Assembly (NCBI RefSeq): GCF_004364865.1
Contig: NZ_SOAU01000001.1
Span: forward strand, 620,001 to 684,000
Length of the DNA stretch: 64,000 nucleotides
Origin: Ilumatobacter fluminis
Lineage (GTDB): Bacteria; Actinomycetota; Acidimicrobiia; Acidimicrobiales; Ilumatobacteraceae
Direction: 5' to 3'
Part shown: piece after piece, positions 28,337 through 42,092 of the stretch
How the letters are laid out: each line of letters starts with the position of its first letter
Position numbering within the stretch: position 1 is the first letter of the stretch
Program-made: the position numbers and the translations under genes
Notes under the pieces: model-generated
What the model was told of the DNA's origin: nothing
Databases searched by the model: none
What the model saw: the letters and a program-made list of their open reading frames with translations, nothing else

Positions 28337-29272
28337 ATGTCCGTCGGCAGTCGCCCCATCGTCCCGTCCCGGCTGGCGCCGGGTGGTGTGGCCCACGGGA
28401 GCCGCAAGCCGGCGACGTCGACGATCGGCTCGTACATCGCACTCACCAAGCCGCGCATCATCGAGCTGCTGCTCATCACGACGGTGCCCACGATGGTGCT
28501 CGCCGAGGGGGCATGGCCGTCGACCTGGCTCGTCCTCATCACCCTGATCGGCGGCACCTTGGCCGCCGGCGGCGCCAACGCGATCAACATGTACGTCGAC
28601 CGCGACATCGACCGCCTGATGAAGCGGACCCAGAACCGGCCGCTCGTCACCGGTGCGATCGCCCCCCGCAACGCCCTGATCTTCGCGTTGTGCCTGGAAG
28701 TGGCGGCGTTCGCCGTGCTGTGGGTCGGTGCCAATCTCCTGTCGGCCGTGCTCGCCCTCTCGGCGACCGCGTTCTACGTGGGCGTGTACACGCTGTGGCT
28801 CAAGCGCACGAGCCGCCAGAACATCGTGATCGGCGGTGCTGCGGGCGCCGTGCCGGTGCTCGTCGGTTGGTCGGCGGTCACGAACAGCCTGTCGCTCACG
28901 CCGTGGGTGCTCTTCGCCGCCATGTTCTTCTGGACGCCGCCCCATTTCTGGGCGCTCGCGATCAAGTACGCCGACGACTACCGGGCGGCCAATGTGCCGA
29001 TGCTCCCGGCGGTCGTCCCCTTCGACCACGCCGTCCGCCAGATGATCGGTCACACGATCGCCATGGTCGCGTGCACCCTCCTGCTCATCCCGGTCGCCGA
29101 TCTCGGCGCCATCTACTCCGTCACTGCTGTCGTCCTCGGTGCCGCCTTCCTCGCCTCGACCATCGTCTTGGCGAAACGGCCCACTGCGGCGATGTCGATG
29201 CGGGTGTTCGGTTTCTCGATCACCTATGTCACCGTCCTGTTCGGTGCGATGACCGTCGATGTCCTGCTCTGA
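28337..29272 (+). CDS. ctaB: Protohaem IX farnesyltransferase (haem O synthase) CtaB
   Basis: The 311-residue UbiA-family membrane protein has about nine hydrophobic segments and the prenyl-diphosphate motif NMYVDRDIDRLMKRTQNRPL, plus YTLWLKRTSRQNI and PHFWALAIKYADDY. It makes haem O, the precursor of haem A for the oxidase encoded just downstream. TACCAT lies nine bases before the ATG. A hairpin terminator follows the gene, so the oxidase operon has its own promoter. Confidence 0.95.
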   Translation: MSVGSRPIVPSRLAPGGVAHGSRKPATSTIGSYIALTKPRIIELLLITTVPTMVLAEGAWPSTWLVLITLIGGTLAAGGANAINMYVDRDIDRLMKRTQNRPLVTGAIAPRNALIFALCLEVAAFAVLWVGANLLSAVLALSATAFYVGVYTLWLKRTSRQNIVIGGAAGAVPVLVGWSAVTNSLSLTPWVLFAAMFFWTPPHFWALAIKYADDYRAANVPMLPAVVPFDHAVRQMIGHTIAMVACTLLLIPVADLGAIYSVTAVVLGAAFLASTIVLAKRPTAAMSMRVFGFSITYVTVLFGAMTVDVLL

Positions 29273-29455: not shown

Positions 29456-31132
29456 ATGACGACGATCGAGACACATCCTGACGACACCGTCGCGGCCTCC
29501 ACGGCCGGCGATTCGACGGTCCCGTCCTTCATCACGGCTGCCTACGACTGGGCGACCACCGTCGACCACAAGAAGATCGGTCGACTGTCGACCGGCTTCG
29601 GCATGTTGGTCCTGCTCGCAGCGGCCGTCCTGGCGCTGTTGCTCGACATCGAGCGACTCGGCGACCCGGGCAGCTTCATCGACACCGGTGCCCAGCTCCA
29701 GCTGATCCAGATGTACCGGGTGGGCCTGGTCGTCGGCGGTATCGCCCCGCTGGCACTCGGACTCGCCGTCGCGGTGGTCCCGATGCAGCTCGGCTCCCGT
29801 CAGATCGCCTTCCCGCGGGTCGCTCTCACCGGCTTCTACGCCTGGCTCGGCGGCACGTCGCTCGTGATGGTCAGCCTCGGTCTCAACGGTGGCGCCGGTG
29901 GCGGCGACGCCGACATGGTCGATCTCTTCCTCACGGGTCTCGGCCTGGCGATTCTCGGCCTCTGCGCCACGGCCGCCAGCCTCGGTACGACGATCCTCAC
30001 CACCCGGGCGCCCGGCATGACGATGCGTCGGGTGTCGGCGTTCACCTGGTCGGCGCTCGTCGGTGCGATCGCCACCCTGCTCGTCATGCCGGTCCTGTTC
30101 GGCGTGCTCATCTATCTCTACGTCGACCACCGGCTCGGCTCCCAGGCCAACTTCATGGGTGTCGAAGGCATCGGCGCCTGGATCGGCTGGGCCTTCACCG
30201 TGCCGACGGTCATCATCTTCGCCATTCCCGCCGTCGGTTTCGCCGCCGAGCAGTTCTCGGTGGCGTTCAAGACCCGTCAGCCGATGCGCGGCGTCCTGTT
30301 CGCCGGGATCGCGCTCATCGGTGTCACCGCCTACGCCGGCTCGACCCAGCAGTTCGTCCACGACGTGACGTTCGACGCCAGCGGTGAGACCTTCATCCGT
30401 GGTGCGGTGCCGTTCCTGCTCTTCGCCGGACTGCCGCTGCTCGGTGTCACGGTCGTGCTCCTGCTGTCGCTGCTCAACGTCAAGAACGGTGCGGGCAACA
30501 GCCCCTCGGTGCGGGCCCCGTTCGTGTTCGGACTGCTCGGCCTGCTGCTCGTCGGCGCCGGCATCGCCGCCAACTTCGCCGAGGGCATCACCGACCTCGA
30601 GCTGGTCGACCCGGCCACCAACCTCGCCACCGCCTTCGAAGAGGGCGCCACGCTGCTGGTCGTCTACGGAGCGGTGCTCGCCATGCTCGGCGGCCTGGTC
30701 TACTGGGCGCCGAAGCTGTCGGGTCGCCTGCTCTCCGACAAGCAGGTGTTGCCACTCGCGCTCCTCGGTGGTCTCGGCGCACTGCTCGCCGGTGCCCCGC
30801 TGCTCGTCGCCGGCTTCGTCGACCAGATCGGCGGCTACCCGGCCAGCCAGGCCGAGGTCGACCAGATCATGACCGTCGCCGACGACGCCGAGATCTGGAT
30901 CACGCTCTCGCTGATCGGTCAGGGCATCATGGCGCTGACGCTGCTCGCGTTCGGCGGCCTGCTCCTCAAGCCCCAGGGTGACGACGACGCCGCCGACGAC
31001 AACCCGTACGGCGGTCAGACGATCGAGTGGAGCACGCCGTCGCCGGCGCCCGCCCACAACTTCGAGCACGTGCCCACCGTTGCCTCGGCCGAGCCGCTGT
31101 TCGCCACCGACACCGAAGGGAGCTCCGAGTGA
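29456..31132 (+). CDS. CtaD paralogue lacking all haem and copper ligands (pseudo-oxidase subunit I)
   Basis: The 558-residue, roughly 12-helix protein aligns along its length with the real CtaD encoded at 34150. Shared landmarks are TVDHKKIG, VPMQLGSRQIAFPRV, TRAPGMTMRRVSAFTW and VYWAPKLSGRLLSD. The metal sites are gone. TMHATTM, the low-spin haem ligand, is QMYRVGL. FGHPEVYILILPSFG, with the CuB His and cross-linked Tyr, is FTVPTVIIFAIPAVG. The second CuB pair HHMF is TQQF. HFHYV, carrying both haem irons' His ligands, is ATLLV. The frame is intact and codon use is normal, so it is not a pseudogene. It may be a structural or assembly subunit. It overlaps the next gene by GTGA. Confidence 0.85.
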   Translation: MTTIETHPDDTVAASTAGDSTVPSFITAAYDWATTVDHKKIGRLSTGFGMLVLLAAAVLALLLDIERLGDPGSFIDTGAQLQLIQMYRVGLVVGGIAPLALGLAVAVVPMQLGSRQIAFPRVALTGFYAWLGGTSLVMVSLGLNGGAGGGDADMVDLFLTGLGLAILGLCATAASLGTTILTTRAPGMTMRRVSAFTWSALVGAIATLLVMPVLFGVLIYLYVDHRLGSQANFMGVEGIGAWIGWAFTVPTVIIFAIPAVGFAAEQFSVAFKTRQPMRGVLFAGIALIGVTAYAGSTQQFVHDVTFDASGETFIRGAVPFLLFAGLPLLGVTVVLLLSLLNVKNGAGNSPSVRAPFVFGLLGLLLVGAGIAANFAEGITDLELVDPATNLATAFEEGATLLVVYGAVLAMLGGLVYWAPKLSGRLLSDKQVLPLALLGGLGALLAGAPLLVAGFVDQIGGYPASQAEVDQIMTVADDAEIWITLSLIGQGIMALTLLAFGGLLLKPQGDDDAADDNPYGGQTIEWSTPSPAPAHNFEHVPTVASAEPLFATDTEGSSE

Positions 31133-31722
31133 GCGCTGGACCGGCCACCGTGGCCCTGCCCCCCGCCGCTCCGCCGGCGCCCCGACGCCAAGTCCTGCTG
31201 GGCACGGCGCTGGCGTGCGTCGGTGGCACGATGCTCATCGGCGGCATGCTCGCCGTCTGGGTGCTGTTCCGTGAGCGCGTCGTCGACGCCGGCGAACGCT
31301 TCCCGATCGACTACATCATCCACGAGGTCGCCACGAACGTGATGCTGATCACGGTCTGGGCTCTCTGCCTGTTCGCCCAGTGGGCCGTGTACGCCGGCAA
31401 CCGTGGCGATCGGGCGCACACCGCCCTCGGCCTCGGCGTCACCGGCGTGTTCGCGCTGGCCTACATCAACGCCCAGGCGTTCGTGTACAGCCAGATGGAG
31501 GTCGAGATCGCCGACGAGTACTACGGCGCCCTCTTCTACGCCATCACCGGCACGATGCTCGCCGTCGTCGCCATCGGCCTCGTCTACACCGTCGTCGCCG
31601 CTTTCCGTTCCCTGTCGGGCCGACTCGGCGACACCGAGGTGCTCGCCGGCCACGCCCTCTACTGGTACTGGACCGCCGCTGCCTACAGCGCCGTCTGGTT
31701 CGTCGTCTACGTCACGAAGTGA
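31129..31722 (+). CDS. Second CtaE-like (oxidase subunit III-type) membrane protein
   Basis: The 197-residue protein has about five hydrophobic segments. Its end, GHALYWYWTAAAYSAVWFVVYV, parallels the subunit III ending LYWHFVDIVWILIFTLVYL of the real CtaE at 36146, and TGTMLAVVAIGLVYTVV parallels its helix 5 region. The GTG start overlaps the pseudo-CtaD stop. I infer that it partners the ligand-free CtaD paralogue as CtaE partners CtaD. Confidence 0.7.
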   Translation: MSAGPATVALPPAAPPAPRRQVLLGTALACVGGTMLIGGMLAVWVLFRERVVDAGERFPIDYIIHEVATNVMLITVWALCLFAQWAVYAGNRGDRAHTALGLGVTGVFALAYINAQAFVYSQMEVEIADEYYGALFYAITGTMLAVVAIGLVYTVVAAFRSLSGRLGDTEVLAGHALYWYWTAAAYSAVWFVVYVTK

Positions 31723-31735
31723 GATCAGCACCGAG

Positions 31736-32863
31736 ATGTTCACCACTGGCACGAAACTCCTGATCGGCTCCGCCGCCCTCGCCTGGATCGGCGCGGCGGT
31801 CTACGGCATCGCCCAAGAGGGCGCCCTGGGCACGATCGGCCTCGTCTCCGCCGCCGTCGCGCTCTCCCTGCTCGCCGGCGTCAACGCCTTCGTCCGCGAC
31901 TCCAACGTGTCGGCCACCGACACCGAGGCATTCGAGACGGCGGCCGCTGCGCAGGCCTCGGCCCGCCGGTCGCTGTGGCCGCTGCTCACAGGCATCGGTT
32001 TCACGATGTTGGCGCTCGGCATGGCCACCCTGCCCGCGATCTTCATCCTGGGTCTCGTGGCCCTCGCCGCCGGCCTCGCCGAGTGGCTGGTCCAGGGCTG
32101 GAGCGAGCGTGCGTCCGCCGACCGGGCCTTCAACGAGGAGGCCCGCGAGGTCGTCGCCGACCCGCTCGAGCTGCCGGTCGCCGGTGCCATCCTGGCTGCG
32201 ATCATCGTGTACTCGTTCAGCCGGGTGATGCTCGGCATGAACACCAAGGAAGCGACGGTCGTCGTGTTCTCGGTCGTCGCCACCGTGGTGCTCGCCATCG
32301 GTGTCCTGATCGCACTGAAGAAGCAGATCAGCGTGCCGGTCGTGACCGGCGTGTTCTCGATCGGTCTGATCGCCATGATCGCCGGCGGTGCGATCGCCGG
32401 ACTCAACGGCGAACGCGACATCCACGTGCACGAGACGACGGCCGATCTCGCCGAGGCCAACCTGTGCGGCACCGAGGAGACCGAAGCCGATCACCACGCC
32501 AGCCAGACGGTGGGCGCCAAGTCGAACCCGGCCGCGACCCTGATCTTCGACGGCTCCGAGCTCGAGATCGACGAGGTCGGCGAGGACGGCCAGGTCGGCA
32601 CCCTGACCTTCCCGCGCGGGAACGCCACCAACGTGATGTTCCTGAACGAGTCCGACGAGGAAGCTCGCCTGGTGCTCGAACTGCATCCCGCCGCCGACTC
32701 CGAGGGCGACCAGCGTGTCTGCACGACGCTCGTCGAAGAGGGCGGCCGCCAGATCCTCACCGTCGAGTTCGACCGCCCGAGCTTCGCACTCGAGGCCGAA
32801 GGCGTGAACTACGAGTTCGTCGTCGCCGGCAGCGATGCCTCGGTCGAGGTGGTCGTGCCGTGA
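31736..32863 (+). CDS. Unknown membrane protein with extracytoplasmic domain, oxidase operon
   Basis: The 375-residue protein has about six hydrophobic segments in residues 1-220 (MFTTGTKLLIGSAALAWIGA first). An extracytoplasmic C-terminal domain (about 225-375) follows, with HVHETT, two cysteines (LCGTEE and RVCTTL), DHHASQ and a beta-rich end that looks cupredoxin-like but lacks a type 1 copper ligand set. I do not recognise the family. It follows the pseudo-CtaD/CtaE pair by 13 bases and precedes ctaC, so a role in oxidase assembly or a supercomplex is plausible. Confidence 0.6.
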   Translation: MFTTGTKLLIGSAALAWIGAAVYGIAQEGALGTIGLVSAAVALSLLAGVNAFVRDSNVSATDTEAFETAAAAQASARRSLWPLLTGIGFTMLALGMATLPAIFILGLVALAAGLAEWLVQGWSERASADRAFNEEAREVVADPLELPVAGAILAAIIVYSFSRVMLGMNTKEATVVVFSVVATVVLAIGVLIALKKQISVPVVTGVFSIGLIAMIAGGAIAGLNGERDIHVHETTADLAEANLCGTEETEADHHASQTVGAKSNPAATLIFDGSELEIDEVGEDGQVGTLTFPRGNATNVMFLNESDEEARLVLELHPAADSEGDQRVCTTLVEEGGRQILTVEFDRPSFALEAEGVNYEFVVAGSDASVEVVVP

Positions 32864-32873
32864 GTCGATCGTC

Positions 32874-32879
32874 TAGCCT
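32874..32879 (+). promoter_or_regulatory. -10 element before ctaC
   Basis: TAGCCT follows the upstream stop codon by eleven bases and would start a transcript about 20 bases before the ctaC ATG. It suggests that ctaCDE can be transcribed apart from the upstream trio. No clear -35 was found. Confidence 0.4.
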
Positions 32880-32904
32880 GACTACGAAAGTACGGACAAA
32901 GCCG

Positions 32905-34137
32905 ATGACCGAGTCTTCCCCGCTCCGCTCCCGTCTGCGCACCGCCGCCCTCGTCGGCGTCGGTGGCGTCGTGCTCGCCTCGTGTGCGCAGGACGCACCC
33001 CAGGACACGTGGCAGCCGGCCGGTAGTGAAGCCCAGAAGATCCACGACCTCCAGTGGCCGATCTTCCTGATCGCCGGCATCGTCGGCCTGATCGTGATGG
33101 CCGTCGTCGCCGTCGTCGTCGTGAAGTTCAAAGATCGCGGCCAGCCGATCCCCGAGCAGTCGCACGGCAAGGCCTGGCTCGAGTACCTGTTCATCGCGCT
33201 CCCGGCCGTGCTCCTCGCCGGCATCGCCGTGCCGACCGTCGCCACGATCATCGACCTCAACGACACCGACGACGCCGACTGCGTCATCAACGTCACCGGC
33301 CAGCAGTGGTGGTGGGAGTACGACTACCCGATCGCCGCCGACGGCAGCATCTGCGGGTTCATGCCCACCGGCGAGTCCGGCACGATCGTGACCAGCGGCC
33401 AGATGGTCATCCCGACCGACGCCAAGGTCGTCATCCGTGGCACCAGCCGCGACGTCATCCACTCGTTCTGGGTGCCCCGCCTGAACGGCAAGCGCGACAT
33501 GGTCCCGGGCCGTGTCCACACCTGGAACTTCAACGCCGAGCAGCCGGGCATCTACGCCGGCCAGTGCGCCGAGTTCTGCGGCCTCTCCCACGCCAACATG
33601 CGCATGGAGATCGTCGCCCTCGACGACACCGACTTCCAGGCCTGGATCGACAACCAGCTCGAGCCGTACCAGTCGCCCGAGGAAGGCACCCTCGCCGCCG
33701 ACGGTGAGAGCGAGTTCATCGCCCAGTGCGCCCGCTGCCACCAGGTCGACGGCCTCGTCGACGCCGACGGCGAACTGGTCGTGTCGAATCCCGAAGACCA
33801 GGTGTACTCGGGTGCTGCGCCCAACCTCACCAACTTCATGACCCGTAACACCTTCGCCGGCGCCACGTGGGATCTGCTCAACGAGGAATGCCGTGCCGAC
33901 GTGTGGGAGGCGGACCCCGAGGTGTTCGGCGACCTCTATCTCGAGGGTGTGACCGAGTCGTGCCTGAACGAGATCGACCTGAAGGAATGGCTGCGCGACG
34001 CGCCCGCCAAGAAGCCGATGTACGCCGACGCCGAATCGCTCGAGGCCACCGACGGCCTCGTCCGCGGCATGCCGTACCTCGCACTGTCCGAAGACCAGAT
34101 CGACCGCTTGGTCGCCTACCTGCTCGAGCGCAAGTGA
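32905..34137 (+). CDS. ctaC: Cytochrome c oxidase subunit II with fused cytochrome c domain
   Basis: The 410-residue lipoprotein (lipobox ending LASC, Cys 27) has two membrane helices (about 52-75 and 93-115), a CuA domain and a C-terminal cytochrome c. CuA ligands are visible: HSFWVP, then CAEFCGLSHANM. QQWWWEYDYP is the aromatic electron-entry patch. The haem c site is CARCH (about residue 275) with GMPY near the end giving the likely axial Met. The fusion makes a separate soluble cytochrome c donor unnecessary, as in other actinobacteria. ctaD follows after 12 bases. Confidence 0.95.
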   Translation: MTESSPLRSRLRTAALVGVGGVVLASCAQDAPQDTWQPAGSEAQKIHDLQWPIFLIAGIVGLIVMAVVAVVVVKFKDRGQPIPEQSHGKAWLEYLFIALPAVLLAGIAVPTVATIIDLNDTDDADCVINVTGQQWWWEYDYPIAADGSICGFMPTGESGTIVTSGQMVIPTDAKVVIRGTSRDVIHSFWVPRLNGKRDMVPGRVHTWNFNAEQPGIYAGQCAEFCGLSHANMRMEIVALDDTDFQAWIDNQLEPYQSPEEGTLAADGESEFIAQCARCHQVDGLVDADGELVVSNPEDQVYSGAAPNLTNFMTRNTFAGATWDLLNEECRADVWEADPEVFGDLYLEGVTESCLNEIDLKEWLRDAPAKKPMYADAESLEATDGLVRGMPYLALSEDQIDRLVAYLLERK

Positions 34138-34149
34138 GGATGAACTGAC

Positions 34150-36153
34150 ATGGCGCTGATCGAACGCCCCCGCACCACCGGCGACCTCACGCCGGCCGTG
34201 GCCACCCCCGAGGCCACCTACGGCGCATTCCGCCGTCCCGTCGAGTCGACCGGGTGGAAGTCGTGGCTCTTCACGATCGACCACAAGAAGATCGGCATCA
34301 TGTACGGCGTCACCGCCATGTTCTTCTTCTTGGTCGGTGGTCTCGAGGCCCTCCTCATCCGGGCCCAGCTCGCCGGACCCGACGGCACGATCCTGTCGGC
34401 CGACAAGTACAACCAGATGTTCACGATGCACGCCACCACGATGGTGTTCCTCTTCGTGATGCCGATGGCGGCGGCGTTCGGTAACTACTTCGTCCCGCTC
34501 CAGATCGGTGCGCGCGACGTCGCGTTCCCTCGCATCAACGCGTTCAGCTTCTGGTGCTTCCTGTTCGGTGCACTCTTCATCAACACCTCGTGGCTGCTCG
34601 GCGGTGCCGCCGACGGCGGCTGGTTCATGTACGCCCCGAACTCGTCGGTCCCGTTCTCACCGACGAACGGCATCGACTTCTGGGGTCTCGGCCTCCAGAT
34701 CACCGGCATCGCGTCGCTGACCGGTGCGATCAACCTGATCGTCACCGTCATCAACATGCGAGCGCCCGGCATGACCTTCATGAAGATGCCGATCTTCACC
34801 TGGATGATCTTCGTCGTGCAGTTCCTGCTCGTGTTCGCCATCCCGGTGATCACGGTGGCGCTGTTCCTGCTGATGTTCCAGCGAACGTTCGACGCCACCT
34901 TCTTCACCGTCGAAGCCGGCGCCGACCCGCTGCTCTGGCAGCACTTGTTCTGGATCTTCGGACACCCCGAGGTGTACATCCTGATCTTGCCGAGTTTCGG
35001 CATCGTCTCCGAGGTCCTCCCGGTCTTTTCGAAGAAGCCGCTGTTCGGCTACCCCCTCGTCGTCTTCTCCGGCGTCGCCATCGGCTTCGTCGGCTGGGGC
35101 GTGTGGGCCCACCACATGTTCGCCTCCGGACTCGGGCCGATCTCGGTCGCCGTGTTCTCCGTGGCCACGATGGCGATCGCGATCCCGACGGGCGTCAAGA
35201 TCGTCAACTGGACGATGACGATGTGGGGCGGCAAGCTCCGCTACACCACCGCCATGCTGTTCGCCATCGGTCTGATCGTGCAGTTCACGATCGGTGGCCT
35301 CTCCGGTGTCACCCACGCCGTGGCGCCATCGGACACACAGCAGACCGACACCTACTACATCGTCGCCCACTTCCACTACGTGCTGTTCGGCGGCGCCATC
35401 CTGGGCATCTTCTCGGGCCTCTACTACTGGTGGCCCAAGATGTTCGGCAAGTTGCTGTCCGAGACGCTCGGTAAGTGGAACTTCTGGCTGATGGTGATCG
35501 GTCTCAACATGGCGTTCGGGCCGATGCACATCATCGGTCTCCAGGGGCAGCCCCGACGCATGTACGTCTGGACCGAGGCCCGCGCCGGTGAAGGCTTCTT
35601 CAACCTCGGGTTCTGGAACCTGATCTCGTCGATCGGTGCGTTCATCCTCGGCTTCGGCGTGCTGGTGTTCTTCTACAACGCCTGGCGTACCCACTTCGGC
35701 AAGCACAAGGCCGGCCCGGCCCCGCTCGACCCGTGGGACGCCCGCTCGCTCGAGTGGATGACCTCGAGCCCGCCGAAGGAGATCAACTTCGACCGGACGC
35801 CCGTCGTCAGCCACCTCGACGAGTTCTTCCATCGCAAGTACGAAGACAAGGACGGCGACCACAAGTCGTACGAACAGGTCATGACCGCAGAAGAGGTCAT
35901 GGCGATCGAAGAGGCCAACGCCGAGGACGACGTCCACTTGCCGTCGCCCTCGTACTGGCCGATCGTCCTCGCCTTCGGCCTGCCGATCATGGCCTACGGC
36001 GTGATCTACAACATCTTGATGATCGTGGTCGGCGCCGCGATCGTCCTGTTGGCGATGTTCGGTTGGGCGCTCGAGCCTGCGACCGCACCCGATTCCGACT
36101 ACGACCCGCCCAGCGAGGGCGGCACCGATCTGGAGCTCTCCACTCATGGCTGA
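34150..36153 (+). CDS. ctaD: Cytochrome c oxidase subunit I CtaD
   Basis: The 667-residue aa3-type subunit I has all ligands: TMHATTM (haem a), FGHPEVYILILPSFG (CuB His and cross-linked Tyr), AHHMF (two CuB His) and HFHYV (haem a3 and haem a). The extended C-terminus (about 540-667) carries an acidic soluble stretch and two extra hydrophobic helices (YWPIVLAFGLPIMAYGVIYN). It reduces oxygen to water and pumps protons. Its stop overlaps the ctaE start by eight bases. Confidence 0.97.
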   Translation: MALIERPRTTGDLTPAVATPEATYGAFRRPVESTGWKSWLFTIDHKKIGIMYGVTAMFFFLVGGLEALLIRAQLAGPDGTILSADKYNQMFTMHATTMVFLFVMPMAAAFGNYFVPLQIGARDVAFPRINAFSFWCFLFGALFINTSWLLGGAADGGWFMYAPNSSVPFSPTNGIDFWGLGLQITGIASLTGAINLIVTVINMRAPGMTFMKMPIFTWMIFVVQFLLVFAIPVITVALFLLMFQRTFDATFFTVEAGADPLLWQHLFWIFGHPEVYILILPSFGIVSEVLPVFSKKPLFGYPLVVFSGVAIGFVGWGVWAHHMFASGLGPISVAVFSVATMAIAIPTGVKIVNWTMTMWGGKLRYTTAMLFAIGLIVQFTIGGLSGVTHAVAPSDTQQTDTYYIVAHFHYVLFGGAILGIFSGLYYWWPKMFGKLLSETLGKWNFWLMVIGLNMAFGPMHIIGLQGQPRRMYVWTEARAGEGFFNLGFWNLISSIGAFILGFGVLVFFYNAWRTHFGKHKAGPAPLDPWDARSLEWMTSSPPKEINFDRTPVVSHLDEFFHRKYEDKDGDHKSYEQVMTAEEVMAIEEANAEDDVHLPSPSYWPIVLAFGLPIMAYGVIYNILMIVVGAAIVLLAMFGWALEPATAPDSDYDPPSEGGTDLELSTHG

Positions 36154-36778
36154 TACTGCAGTGCACGCCGCCGCCGGTCACGACGACCACCACGACGGTC
36201 ATCACGGCGGCCACTACACCTCGACCGGCCTGTCGAACAACAAGCTGGCGATGTGGCTCTTCCTGGGTTCGGAGTGCCTCCTGTTCGGTGGTCTGATCTC
36301 GGTGTACATGCTGTACCGGGGCCGCCACACGGCGAACCTCGGCCCTGACCAGGTGTGGGACATCCCCTTCACCTCGGCGTCGAGCTTCGTGCTCCTGATG
36401 TCGTCGCTGACCATGGTGCTGGCCGTCACCGCCGCCAAGCGGCACGACGATCGCACGACGAACGTCTGGCTGAGCGTCACGGCGCTCCTCGGCTCGCTGT
36501 TCGTCGCCGGTCAGGTCTACGAGTTCACGGTCTTCTACCGTGAGGGCCTCGGCTACACGACGAGCCTGTTCTCGTCGAGCTTCTACACCCTGACCGGCTT
36601 CCACGGCGTCCACGTCACCGTCGGCGTGATCATGCTGCTCGCCGTGGTCGGCATGATCATCCGGAATCGGATCCCCGGCGACAAGGCCGAGGTCGTCGAG
36701 CTCGTCGGCCTCTACTGGCACTTCGTCGACATCGTGTGGATTCTGATCTTCACCCTCGTCTACCTCATCCCGGCCTGA
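36146..36778 (+). CDS. ctaE: Cytochrome c oxidase subunit III CtaE
   Basis: The 210-residue protein has a His/Asp-rich N-terminus (DDHHDGHHGGH) and five to six helices. Family marks are MWLFLGSECLLFGGLI with the conserved Glu, FYTLTGFHGVHVTVG, and the ending LYWHFVDIVWILIFTLVYLIP. It overlaps ctaD and is followed 14 bases later by subunit IV. The His-rich start could bind metal. Confidence 0.95.
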   Translation: MADTAVHAAAGHDDHHDGHHGGHYTSTGLSNNKLAMWLFLGSECLLFGGLISVYMLYRGRHTANLGPDQVWDIPFTSASSFVLLMSSLTMVLAVTAAKRHDDRTTNVWLSVTALLGSLFVAGQVYEFTVFYREGLGYTTSLFSSSFYTLTGFHGVHVTVGVIMLLAVVGMIIRNRIPGDKAEVVELVGLYWHFVDIVWILIFTLVYLIPA

Positions 36779-36792
36779 TCGAGAGACTGCGC

Positions 36793-37140
36793 ATGAGCAC
36801 CGAAACCGCAACCGACGCCACCACCGAGGAAGTCGACTTCCGCGAAGCCGACGACCACGTCGATCACTGGACCGACCTGCAGTTCGTCTACCTCGCGATC
36901 GGCCTTGCGGTCGTCACCGCGATCGAGGTCGCACTCAGCTACATGGTCGACGACCTCGGAGCGCTCTTCCTGCCGCTCCTGCTGCTCTTGATGTTCATCA
37001 AGTTCTTCTCGGTCGTCTTCTACTTCATGCACCTGAAGTTCGACAACCGGTGGTTCAGCATCCTGTTCTACATGGGGCTGTTCCTGGCGGTCGGCGTCTA
37101 CGTCGCCGCGTTGATGACCTTCCAGTTCTTCAGCTCCTGA
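36793..37140 (+). CDS. Cytochrome c oxidase subunit IV (COX4_pro-type)
   Basis: This 115-residue protein has an acidic N-terminus and three hydrophobic helices including FLPLLLLLMFIKFFSVVFYFMHLKFDNRWF, the pattern of prokaryotic small subunit IV. It closes the operon. A weak hairpin (GCCGCC-GCCC-GGCGGC, 37151-37166) follows. Confidence 0.85.
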   Translation: MSTETATDATTEEVDFREADDHVDHWTDLQFVYLAIGLAVVTAIEVALSYMVDDLGALFLPLLLLLMFIKFFSVVFYFMHLKFDNRWFSILFYMGLFLAVGVYVAALMTFQFFSS

Positions 37141-39208: not shown

Positions 39209-39254
39209 TAGGGTGCACGCCGTTCCAACCAACGGCGAATCAAAGGAGCGGCAC
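39209..39254 (+). promoter_or_regulatory. Promoter and conserved leader of the first LPXTG protein gene
   Basis: TAGGGT (39209-39214) is followed by a roughly 34-base leader with GTTCCAACC, GGCGAATCAA and an AAAGGAG ribosome site. Nearly the same leader (TAGCGT at 40700-40705, GTTCCAACC, GGCGAAACAAGGAG) precedes the paralogue at 40746. Confidence 0.6.
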
Positions 39255-40577
39255 ATGGGACGATGGCGGAAGATGATCGTGGCGACCACGGTCATGGCAG
39301 GAACAGGAGTGGTGCTCGCAGCACCGGTCGAGGCCGGCGGTGGAGGAAACGGGGTGTCGATCGAACTCCTGGTCGACGGCCCCGATGCCGAGTCGGTCCT
39401 CGCCGGACTCACCCTCGAGGTCTTCCAGGAGTCGGGCGGCATCGATGTCGCCGGCAACAATTGCGGGGCTCCGTCGACGCCGGTCGTCGAGACGTTCAAC
39501 GCGGAGACCGAAATCTCGTGCGACGCCTTCGCGTACGGTGACTACGCGCTCGGCCTCGACGGCGTGCCAGAGGGCTGGTCCGTCTCGGCGTACTGTTACG
39601 ACCTCGGCCAGAGGGAACGGATCGAGAGCGGCACTCCGACGTTCACGATGTCGGTCCAGTCGCCCTACTGGGACTGCGAAATCTATGTCGTGACGCCGAT
39701 GCTCGCCGTGGACAAGGTGGTCGAGGGCGGCGACGCGTCGGCGTCCGACTTCGAGTTCGAGGTGTACGACGACCAGGGCGTGCTGGTCGACACCGGTGAC
39801 CCGATCGTCGATCCGTCCGACGACGTGTGCACCGGAAGCTTGACCGAATGCGAGATCATCGCCCTGCCCGCCGGCGAGTACACCCTCGGAGAGGTGCTGC
39901 CGTCACACGGCTACGAGGTCGGCTCGGTCGAATGCGACAGCTTCATCGACCTGCGGAGGTACTTCGGAGAGGCGGGCGACGAGCAGCTGGAGATCATCGA
40001 TGACGAAAGCGCAGCGTTCCGGACCGACGACGGTGATGCGTACTGCACGGTCACGAACGTGTACCGCGAGGGCCAGCTGATCGTGACAGCGTCGGTGAAC
40101 AACGACGACGGTGGCGTCGCCGGTGTCGAAGACGTGTCGATCGAGGTGTACGAGGCCGACGGTGACACGCCGGTGATCGCGGCCACGGCGTGCGCCGCCG
40201 ACGGCTCGTGTCTCGACGAGATGCTGCCGATCGGTGACTACGTGATCGGCTACATCGGCCCCGACGGCTACACGCGGGAGATCACCCAGTCGGTGAGCTT
40301 GGTCGTCACCGAGAAGGTCACCGACGACGCCGACGCGGCATTCACGGCGGCGTTCGGTGAGGTGGTCGAGATCGAGGTGGCGATCGACGATCCGGCTCCG
40401 GAGCCGACCACCACCACGACGGAGCCGGCGACGACGACGACGGCGTTCGATGCGGGGGCGGGCACGTTGCCCCCGACGGGTGCCTCGTCGGAGACGAACA
40501 CGACGATCGCCGTGCTGGCGTTCGCTCTGATCGCGGCGGGTCTCGCCCTGGTCGGCGTCCGCCGACGCACCGCCTGA
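39255..40577 (+). CDS. Secreted LPXTG-anchored surface protein, copy 1
   Basis: The 440-residue protein has a Sec signal (KMIVATTVMAGTGVVLAAPVEA), several beta-sandwich-like domains with prealbumin/SpaA-type wording (LAVDKVVEGGDASASDFEFEVYDDQG, AGEYTLGEVLPSHGYEVGSVEC), a Thr/Pro linker (EPTTTTTEPATTTT), and a sortase signal: LPPTG, hydrophobic helix and RRRTA tail. It is probably anchored to peptidoglycan; no sortase is in the window. The last 212 bases differ at only three positions from the paralogue at 40746 while the N-terminal halves have diverged. The AAAGGAG site supports this start. Confidence 0.85.
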   Translation: MGRWRKMIVATTVMAGTGVVLAAPVEAGGGGNGVSIELLVDGPDAESVLAGLTLEVFQESGGIDVAGNNCGAPSTPVVETFNAETEISCDAFAYGDYALGLDGVPEGWSVSAYCYDLGQRERIESGTPTFTMSVQSPYWDCEIYVVTPMLAVDKVVEGGDASASDFEFEVYDDQGVLVDTGDPIVDPSDDVCTGSLTECEIIALPAGEYTLGEVLPSHGYEVGSVECDSFIDLRRYFGEAGDEQLEIIDDESAAFRTDDGDAYCTVTNVYREGQLIVTASVNNDDGGVAGVEDVSIEVYEADGDTPVIAATACAADGSCLDEMLPIGDYVIGYIGPDGYTREITQSVSLVVTEKVTDDADAAFTAAFGEVVEIEVAIDDPAPEPTTTTTEPATTTTAFDAGAGTLPPTGASSETNTTIAVLAFALIAAGLALVGVRRRTA

Positions 40578-40745: not shown

Positions 40746-42092
40746 ATGATGGGACGGATCAAGCGGATGATGGTGGCGACGGCGGTCGCTGCCTCTGGCG
40801 GGCTGGCGCTGGCCGCGCCGGCCGATGCACAAGAGCCCAATGACGTCTGGGTCGAGGTCGTCCTCTCGGGCGTCGACGCGCCCACCGTGCGCGACGGCAT
40901 CGTCGTCGAGTTCTACGAGACGGCCGGCGGCACCATGGTGACGCCGACCTGTGACGAGTACGACTACGACGGTTCGACCCGATTTGTCGCCCAGCACAAC
41001 GTCGGCTGCGATCTCCCCGGCCAGCCGGGCGGCACCTACGCACTGGGGTTGAGCGGCGTGCCCGAGGGCTGGTCGGTGTACGTCGAGTGTTACGACGGAG
41101 GCGACATCACCGAGCGGCTCGACGACCCGGGCGCCGAGTTCGCGACCGGCGGCAATTATCCCGCTCAGTGCACGGTGGCTCTCCGGCAGGGGATCGTGAT
41201 CCTCGACAAGACGGTCGTCGGGACCGACACGCCCGCTCCGGCGAGCGACTTCACCCTCGAGGTGTTCGCGGACGGCGCCCAGGTCGCGACCGCGGTCGAC
41301 CCGTCGGACGCGACCTGCGAGGGGTGGGACGACGCCGACGCGGGCACCGATTGTGCGGTGATCGGCGTCGAACCGGGGGTCATCACACTGGGCGAACTCC
41401 CGGTGACCGGGTACGAGCTGGCGGCGCTCGACTGCGAGGGCATCGACCCGTTCGACTACGAAGAGGACGATCGCGAGGCGTTCGACGACGAGAGCGCCAC
41501 GTACGACCTGCTCGAGAGCGATCTCTACTGCACCATCACCAACACGTATGCGGAGGGGCAGTTGATCGTGACGGCCTCGGTGAACAACGACGACGGCGGC
41601 ACCGCCGGCGTCGAGGACGTGTCGATCGAGGTGTACGAGGACGGTGTCGACGCCCCGGTCATCGCAGCGACAGCGTGCGCGGCCGACGGCTCCTGCCTCG
41701 ACGAGATGCTGCCGATCGGCGACTACGTGATCGGCTACACGGGCCCCGATGGCTATACCCGTGAGATCACCCAGTCGGTGACGGCACCGAGCACCACGAC
41801 CACGTCGTTGCCGGTCATCCAGGAGGCGATGGTGACCGACGATCCGGACGCCGAGTTCACGATCGAGAACGGCGGCCTCGTCGAGATCGAGGTGGCGATC
41901 GACGATCCGGCTCCGGAGCCGACCACGACCACGACGGAGCCGGCGACGACGACGACGGCGTTCGATGCGGGGGCGGGCACGTTGCCCCCGACGGGTGCCT
42001 CGTCGGAGACGAACACGACGATCGCCGTGCTGGCGTTCGCTCTGATCGCGGCGGGGCTCGCCTTGGTCGGCGTCCGCCGACGCACCGCCTGA
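40746..42092 (+). CDS. Secreted LPXTG-anchored surface protein, copy 2
   Basis: The 448-residue paralogue has the same plan: signal peptide (ending LALAAPADA), repeated beta-domains (IVILDKTVVGTDTPAPASDFTLEVF, VITLGELPVTGYELAALDC), a domain nearly identical to copy 1 (VTASVNNDDGGTAGVEDVSIEVYE), Thr/Pro linker, LPPTG, helix and basic tail. An inserted APSTTTTSLPVIQEA segment distinguishes its last domain. GGAG precedes the ATG; a second ATG follows directly and could be the start. Tandem duplication with later homogenisation of the 3' end is the simplest history. Confidence 0.85.
   Translation: MMGRIKRMMVATAVAASGGLALAAPADAQEPNDVWVEVVLSGVDAPTVRDGIVVEFYETAGGTMVTPTCDEYDYDGSTRFVAQHNVGCDLPGQPGGTYALGLSGVPEGWSVYVECYDGGDITERLDDPGAEFATGGNYPAQCTVALRQGIVILDKTVVGTDTPAPASDFTLEVFADGAQVATAVDPSDATCEGWDDADAGTDCAVIGVEPGVITLGELPVTGYELAALDCEGIDPFDYEEDDREAFDDESATYDLLESDLYCTITNTYAEGQLIVTASVNNDDGGTAGVEDVSIEVYEDGVDAPVIAATACAADGSCLDEMLPIGDYVIGYTGPDGYTREITQSVTAPSTTTTSLPVIQEAMVTDDPDAEFTIENGGLVEIEVAIDDPAPEPTTTTTEPATTTTAFDAGAGTLPPTGASSETNTTIAVLAFALIAAGLALVGVRRRTA

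Follow-up and report, generated by a model that had tools for sequence, protein, structure and literature searches.

A ligand-free subunit I paralogue and its partners as a probable companion module of the caa3 oxidase in Ilumatobacter fluminis and its relatives

Why would a bacterium keep, directly ahead of the genes for a complete cytochrome oxidase, a second gene for the catalytic subunit whose product has lost its metal ligands? The question is raised by a stretch of 64,000 nucleotides of the Ilumatobacter fluminis genome (contig NZ_SOAU01000001.1, positions 620,001 to 684,000, forward strand), here called the window. Its caa3 oxidase genes (ctaC, ctaD, ctaE and a ctaF-like gene) are preceded by three others: psD, for a ligand-free paralogue of subunit I (CtaD); psE, for a partner resembling subunit III (CtaE); and X, for a membrane protein with a cupredoxin-fold domain. 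The initial annotation of this DNA had psD heading the oxidase operon, which needs correcting: ctaB, on the same strand, precedes psD by 183 bases. We consider it probable, with moderate confidence, that psD, psE and X are a non-catalytic structural companion module of the caa3 oxidase, and the best reading of its history is descent from a redox-active ancestor.

psD and its partners

The 558-residue frame of psD is open throughout, as first described, and its product matches the subunit I family PF00115 far above chance (100.6 bits against a cut-off of 34.8, over profile positions 1-433 of 436). On the CtaD_CoxA equivalog TIGR02891 it reaches 149.2 bits, below the cut-off of 670.75, compared with 684.1 bits for the CtaD of the same operon, to which it is 29% identical. 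The structure predicted by AlphaFold2 from 25 aligned sequences is a complete COX1 fold, with a predicted local distance difference test score (pLDDT) of 87.5 and a predicted template modelling score (pTM) of 0.89. VIA-align superimposes the model on subunit I of a bo3 oxidase (8qqk_A) with Z 38.7 and a root-mean-square deviation of 2.9 over 504 residues, and on 6adq_F with Z 37.9 and a deviation of 2.8 over 497 residues. Foldseek ranks actinobacterial CtaD from bcc-aa3 supercomplexes highest, together with bo3 oxidase; the best matches by sequence in the PDB are also actinobacterial bcc-aa3 CtaD, e.g., 6hwh and 6adq.

The likeness to A-type CtaD/CoxA thus covers the whole fold, and it includes loop motifs resembling DHKKIG, VPLQxGAR, RAPGMT and EWxxxSPxPxxNF, but it ends at the functional residues. 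In Rhodobacter sphaeroides numbering, the ligands of CuB, haem a3 and haem a are missing from the window's psD (H102 is replaced by Y, H284 by V, H333/H334 by QQ, H419 by A and H421 by L), together with D132, K362 and the R481/R482 pair. The motif replacements reported at first sight (TMHATTM to QMYRVGL, HPEVY to VPTVI, HHMF to TQQF and HFHYV to ATLLV) are all correct. By comparison, the eight residues checked are kept in 35 of 35 CtaD rows, the window's CtaD among them.

Ligands at shifted positions can be excluded without any alignment: psD has six histidines in total (7, 38, 225, 302, 534 and 538), and helices 2, 6, 7 and 10 of the model contain none, so that the description of psD as ligand-free holds. 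In one alignment His302 comes to stand under a CuB position. It sits in the loop after helix 7 and is common to 5 of the 8 same-genus relatives compared, with Gln in locus L043, Leu in L027 and other residues elsewhere; given this location and its replacement in other psD, it is not a conserved ligand. As judged from the model, the subunit I fold of psD is intact and predicted with confidence, and it holds no haem or CuB ligand. Nitric oxide reductase NorB and other haem-copper branches share the superfamily fold with psD and keep three His at the FeB/CuB site, but this three-His site is found in none of the 103 distinct psD compared below.

The reported coupling of psD to psE by GTGA is real: the two genes overlap by these four bases at 31129, the start of psE. 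The product of psE exceeds the PF00510 cut-off (31.2 bits against 23.8), matching the C-terminal half of the profile, and an alignment of 25 psE could be built. It falls below the operon's CtaE by 34 bits on PF00510 and by 99 bits on an actinobacterial CtaE model and, unlike CtaE, it is encoded with a cofactor-free subunit I.

The model of X is weaker than that of psD (pLDDT 74.2, pTM 0.45). Cupredoxins are the best Foldseek matches of its C-terminus (4hcf_B, probability 1.00, TM-score 0.72 by target); the type-1 copper ligand set H...CxxH...M is absent in the window's X and present in early-branching relatives. The second part of X resembles a group of membrane proteins whose genes lie near ctaD in other classes of Actinomycetota and which have a membrane segment followed by a cupredoxin, as in X 130-357. 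The matches listed begin at about X 115-140 and leave the N-terminus uncovered, none of the proteins is encoded beside a psD, and the window's X differs from them in having lost the copper set. In loci of other classes and orders (L119:6857-7834, L114:6565-7215 and similar ones) a membrane-cupredoxin gene lies about 0.8-1.0 kb after ctaF; its product corresponds to the second half of X, of which Pfam recognizes the cupredoxin part only.

For the N-terminal part, profile positions 68-121 of X match a subunit IV-like C-terminal segment of CtaD (E 1.9e-7), and the first ~121 positions also match proteins of roughly 130-150 aa. One of these, a 131-aa protein encoded directly after a CtaD gene, is recognized by Pfam as Cyt_c_ox_IV (28 bits). 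A Pfam scan gave no direct match for the window's X, the X of locus L046 reaches 16.5 bits on the subunit IV family PF12270 (cut-off 26.9), and no subunit IV is among the 50 Foldseek rows listed for the N-terminal helices. The active CtaD of the window itself has a subunit IV-like C-terminal extension, with 26.6 bits on Cyt_c_ox_IV, marginally below the cut-off of 26.9. Read as homology, and not as composition, the module would correspond to subunits I and III and probably IV, and a cupredoxin would take the position that subunit II has in a normal oxidase.

Linkage, selection and the history of ligand loss

Because a search of the class with psD alone is confounded by true CtaD, X was used as the marker. 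Among the matches listed, X occurs at E below 1e-50 in 33 of 198 genomes of the class, all of them in the window's order: 13 of the 14 from the window's family and 20 of the 37 others of the order. No full-length X from outside the order is among the matches listed for 198 class and 198 phylum genomes, two samples that overlap in part; the best outside match listed, in the phylum sample, covers positions 115-357 (E 3.7e-32). Within the order X is found in 76 of 118 genomes, across many families. Named loci with psD number 47, of which 19 are titled Ilumatobacter or Ilumatobacteraceae, the other titles being broader, referring to other Acidimicrobi- names or evidently wrong.

The presence of X closely follows one type of oxidase, which is labelled caa3 in the relatives by its likeness to the window operon, whose ctaC has a cytochrome c domain. 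We counted as operon-type CtaD full matches of at least ~790 bits, or fragments with at least 55% identity. By this measure 72 of the 118 order genomes have the operon-type CtaD and, among the matches listed, 71 of the 72 also have X (Fisher p 6e-25, uncorrected for relatedness). The sole genome with this CtaD and no X listed, G411, has a contig edge within ctaC. Conversely, five genomes have X listed and no operon-type CtaD; G028, G416, G440 and G443 carry ctaC nearby, and in three of these four the start of ctaD runs off the contig; the fifth is G410, described below. Genomes of the order without operon-type CtaD are without X in 41 of 46 cases, again among the matches listed, and nearly all have another CtaD, of a kind that lies near a cytochrome b gene in five relatives. 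The module as a component of a bcc-aa3 supercomplex thus finds no support. A link to alternative complex III was rejected, NrfD being patchy (18 of 41 genomes).

The order ctaB-psD-psE-X-ctaC-ctaD on one strand is seen in 85 of the 85 loci with all six genes, at varying distances. A 4-base stop/start overlap joins psD and psE in 54 of 115 testable loci, and X and ctaC in 59 of 111, the window included; these counts and the 85 loci include duplicates, i.e., the same genome under two names. The overlaps point to synthesis coupled with that of subunit II.

Is the ligand-free gene nevertheless drifting? In the three closest pairs (84-87% identity) the ratio of nonsynonymous to synonymous substitution rates (omega), by the Nei-Gojobori method (NG86), is 0.13-0.21 for psD. 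Of the other genes, psE has 0.09-0.12, X has 0.20-0.38, ctaC has 0.17-0.18 and ctaD has 0.09-0.13. The psD gene is thus constrained, to a degree similar to ctaC and less so than ctaD. Relaxed selection together with absence from close relatives had been named as grounds for giving up the initial interpretation; the first is rejected on these pairs, and close relatives do have the gene. By the Yang-Nielsen method (YN00), omega of psD is 0.04 and 0.11 in two pairs. More distant psD pairs, at 60-63% identity, give NG86 values of 0.50-0.56; we rely on the close pairs because the NG86 synonymous rate seems compressed in this GC-rich DNA. None of the listed psD matches in relatives has an internal stop.

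Constraint is distributed unevenly over psD. With the two sides assigned by the known subunit I topology, the mean pairwise identity of 45 psD from outside the family is 0.43 in cytoplasmic loops and tails, 0.32 in the membrane and 0.25 in periplasmic loops, compared with even values of 0.60, 0.63 and 0.65, respectively, in 72 CtaD (a set without L133, whose frame starts late). In the C-terminal tail the two proteins are nearly equal (0.47 for psD, 0.51 for CtaD). The greater conservation of the cytoplasmic side suggests that selection tends the cytoplasmic surface over the cofactor cavity.

To follow the loss of ligands we compared 103 distinct psD, i.e., open frames by selection of at least 430 aa, with partial psD at contig edges excluded and 8 sequences identical over residues 61-450 removed. 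The CuB triad is present in none, and a single His at a CuB position in 4. D132 remains in one and K362 in none, so the known proton paths are gone. The low-spin haem pair H102+H421 is kept in 18 (all three of H102, H419 and H421 in 8), and among these 18 R481 is replaced in all and R482 in 16. A pattern search found the type-1 copper set in 16 of the 100 loci with usable X, 3 of the 103 having none; 14 of the 16 stand beside a haem-pair psD, as against 4 of the 84 others. Locus L227, whose CtaD frame is broken and poorly aligned, is in no count.

In an 84-row tree (from 124 rows) psD is one side of a single branch with a support of 100 in the Shimodaira-Hasegawa-like approximate likelihood-ratio test (SH-aLRT). 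In a 70-row tree (from 111 rows), with 8 CtaD as the root, the earliest branch of psD consists of 4 rows, all with the haem pair and the type-1 copper set in X, and the second of 14 rows, 9 with both, 2 with copper only, 1 with haem only and 2 with neither; 14 of the 18 haem-pair psD fall in these two branches. The clade that includes the window's family has 44 rows, and in 40 of them neither trait is present. The node placing the 4-row group first has an SH-aLRT of 89, and the tree requires 6 changes of the haem-pair state and 4 of the copper state, counts which give no direction. The two trees come from quick searches and contain long branches, and in the 84-row tree the long row L060 is placed with uncertainty; they do not fix the position of psD among haem-copper oxidases.

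Since CtaD has the ligands, the simplest reading is that CuB and the proton-path residues were lost at the base of the clade and the haem and copper sites later and repeatedly; because early-branching relatives keep haem ligands and the type-1 copper set, total ligand loss looks late and repeated. Apparently, then, CuB was lost first and the haems later and more than once, with the gene remaining under purifying selection. A coupled loss of haem and type-1 copper does not survive: the raw association is strong, but there are 4 independent pairs, with a median p of 1. Neither the place of X in the module as its third protein, nor the spread over many families, nor the ligands retained in early branches had been foreseen in the initial annotation.

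Coordinates and other genes

All eight genes, from ctaB to the ctaF-like gene, are on the + strand of the window (Table 1). The likely start of ctaC is a GTG in a 4-base overlap with the stop of X, with an alternative ATG at 32905.

Table 1. Genes and protein segments of the conserved cluster, in window positions
Feature	Coordinates	Strand	Evidence
ctaB, haem O synthase, at the head of the conserved cluster	28337..29272	+	NCBIfam PRK04375.1-2, 391 bits, cut-off 246
psD, ligand-free subunit I (CtaD) paralogue, 558 aa	29456..31132	+	PF00115, 100.6 bits; COX1 fold in model
psE, subunit III (CtaE)-like partner, 197 aa	31129..31722	+	PF00510, 31.2 bits, cut-off 23.8
X, membrane protein with cupredoxin-fold domain, 375 aa	31736..32863	+	Open reading frame (ORF), alignment, model, Foldseek
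X residues 1-121, possible subunit IV (Cyt_c_ox_IV)-like segment (weak to moderate evidence)	31736..32098	+	Indirect profile matches
X residues 130-223, membrane segment	32123..32404	+	Partial profile matches; helices 130-140, 142-167, 171-194 and 200-223 in model
X residues 262-375, cupredoxin fold without type-1 copper ligand set	32519..32860	+	Foldseek, 4hcf_B
ctaC, subunit II fused to cytochrome c	32860..34137	+	COX2 and Cytochrom_C domains in the frame read from 32905
ctaD, active subunit I, all ligands present	34150..36153	+	PF00115, 515.9 bits
ctaE, oxidase subunit III	36146..36778	+	PF00510, 65.4 bits
ctaF-like small subunit	36790..37140	+	COX4_pro, 37.2 bits, cut-off 28.9

The genome (4.78 Mb in one contig) holds two COX1 genes besides psD: the operon's ctaD and a second ctaD elsewhere. 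The latter (an ORF of 866 aa; L063:4992-7592, G000:C1 about 1560000) adjoins a CtaC-like gene and encodes all metal ligands but differs in its channel residues (E at D132, Q at K362, G at N139 and I at N121); it is possibly an oxidase with unusual proton paths. The genome has one cytochrome b match (G000:C1:879705-880253, a frame of 270 aa), and in the five relatives mentioned above a second, lower-scoring kind of cytochrome b lies within ~8 kb of the other kind of CtaD. Further along the window, two adjacent genes at 39213-40577 and 40746-42092 encode predicted surface proteins that resemble each other closely and end in the same C-terminus (LPPTGASSETNTT...), which looks like the result of a tandem duplication.

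Possible roles of the module

Evolution has kept a cofactor-free module, which makes a structural companion of the real oxidase probable. The computed observations are the predicted fold, ligand loss, operon linkage, purifying selection, cytoplasmic conservation and a single psD branch; we favour the companion because of the linkage, gene order, overlaps, selection, fold and cytoplasmic conservation, and the persistence after cofactor loss. Specifically, psD, psE and X would form a membrane module on the plan of an oxidase: subunits I and III, probably a part akin to subunit IV, and a cupredoxin in the position of subunit II. In this organism the module has no haem or copper ligands. Most likely it would accompany the active caa3 oxidase permanently, as a pseudo-protomer that takes no part in catalysis. 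It would dock via the conserved cytoplasmic face and C-terminal tail, and would stabilise or organise the oxidase complex. Its ancestor, as suggested by the tree, would have lost CuB while keeping the low-spin haem pair and the type-1 copper domain, and hence would have carried electrons; the redox role would have been lost several times later while the structural role persisted. The initial proposal on function stands in part, namely a maintained, non-catalytic I/III pair tied to the oxidase, for which a scaffold or assembly role can be inferred; the suggested bc1-oxidase link finds no support.

CydB of cytochrome bd, thought to be a haem-less relative of CydA, offers an analogue, though not a relative: there, too, a cofactor-poor partner related to the catalytic subunit is kept in the complex. 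The fold and family are different, and here a second copy of several subunits stands beside a complete oxidase.

Several points weigh against a structural companion. That psD, psE and X bind one another and the oxidase is inferred from genomic linkage. The gene for psD evolves faster than ctaD, and X faster still. Some cytoplasmic parts of psD are poorly conserved: identity is 0.23 in the N-terminal stretch, 0.25 in loop 6-7 and 0.28 in loop 8-9. Related ctaC-ctaD-ctaE-ctaF clusters of other classes do without the module. Two loci of one early-branching family (L224 and L226, family f112) have ~5 kb between X and ctaC, the widest gap seen. In genome G410 psD and psE are present, but a stop interrupts X, and neither ctaC nor ctaD occurs within ~7 kb downstream, either as a real exception or through misassembly. 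Finally, operon linkage fits an assembly factor equally well.

This last reading, in which psD, psE and X act as a transient template or holdase for the insertion or maturation of CtaC, CtaD and CtaE and are absent from the finished enzyme, is the main rival; we judge it unlikely, with enough in its favour to be taken seriously. The module is encoded between ctaB and ctaC, ahead of the real subunits, and the frequent overlap of X with ctaC and the conserved cytoplasmic tail suit such a function; the cytoplasmic tail of mitochondrial Cox1 takes part in assembly control. However, a pure holdase would not need the haem and copper ligand sets that early-branching forms keep, and a set resembling subunits I, III and IV would seem large for a chaperone.

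A new membrane function unrelated to the oxidase (handling of lipids, quinones or small molecules, or sensing), with an incidental place in the operon, would account for the poor conservation of much of the membrane part of psD and for the absence of D132 in 102 of 103 psD and of K362 in all. It is hard to reconcile with an unchanged gene order and with the finding that, among the matches listed, 71 of the 72 genomes with one type of oxidase have X, and we regard it as improbable.

Somewhat less probable still is an electron wire, from the cupredoxin through the low-spin haem to the oxidase or another acceptor. It is conceivable in the early-branching relatives, where the haem pair and the type-1 copper X tend to go together, throughout the first branch and mostly in the second, and would have been lost in the window's family; in the window's psD the helices concerned are free of His, and the window's X lacks the copper ligand set. 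Yet the association of the two traits is not significant when ancestry is allowed for, and the R481 and R482 replacements in haem-pair psD speak against it as well. That psD is a decaying duplicate (pseudogene) or an alignment artefact, as the loss of all ligands and an evolution faster than that of CtaD might suggest, is already refuted by the low omega of close pairs, the fully supported single branch, the preserved synteny and the lack of internal stops in the listed matches.

The structural companion thus remains our preferred reading. A more specific account we put forward tentatively, at a little short of an even chance: a shadow oxidase in a fixed heteromeric complex with the real caa3 oxidase, in nearly all members of the order that carry this oxidase, which began as a CuB-less carrier with haem and blue copper and was stripped to a scaffold in several lineages. 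A literature search, largely without subscription journals, found no description of a ligand-free CtaD paralogue, and the parts available to us of a paper on COX1 evolution (PMC8239418) do not mention such a protein.

What is seen among the 103 distinct sequences is a clade without a CuB site beside a complete oxidase, in which the haem ligands are gone in some lineages and kept in others. The haem-copper superfamily is customarily recognized by the ligands of subunit I, and any match to it tends to be annotated as an oxidase; in these genomes, COX1 counts overstate the number of terminal oxidases. If the account above is true, the clade would be a natural series from a redox protein to a pure scaffold, one that lets us ask what the protein shell of an oxidase does besides catalysis, with a bearing on the origin of respiratory pseudo-subunits and on how oxidases are built in Ilumatobacteraceae and their relatives.

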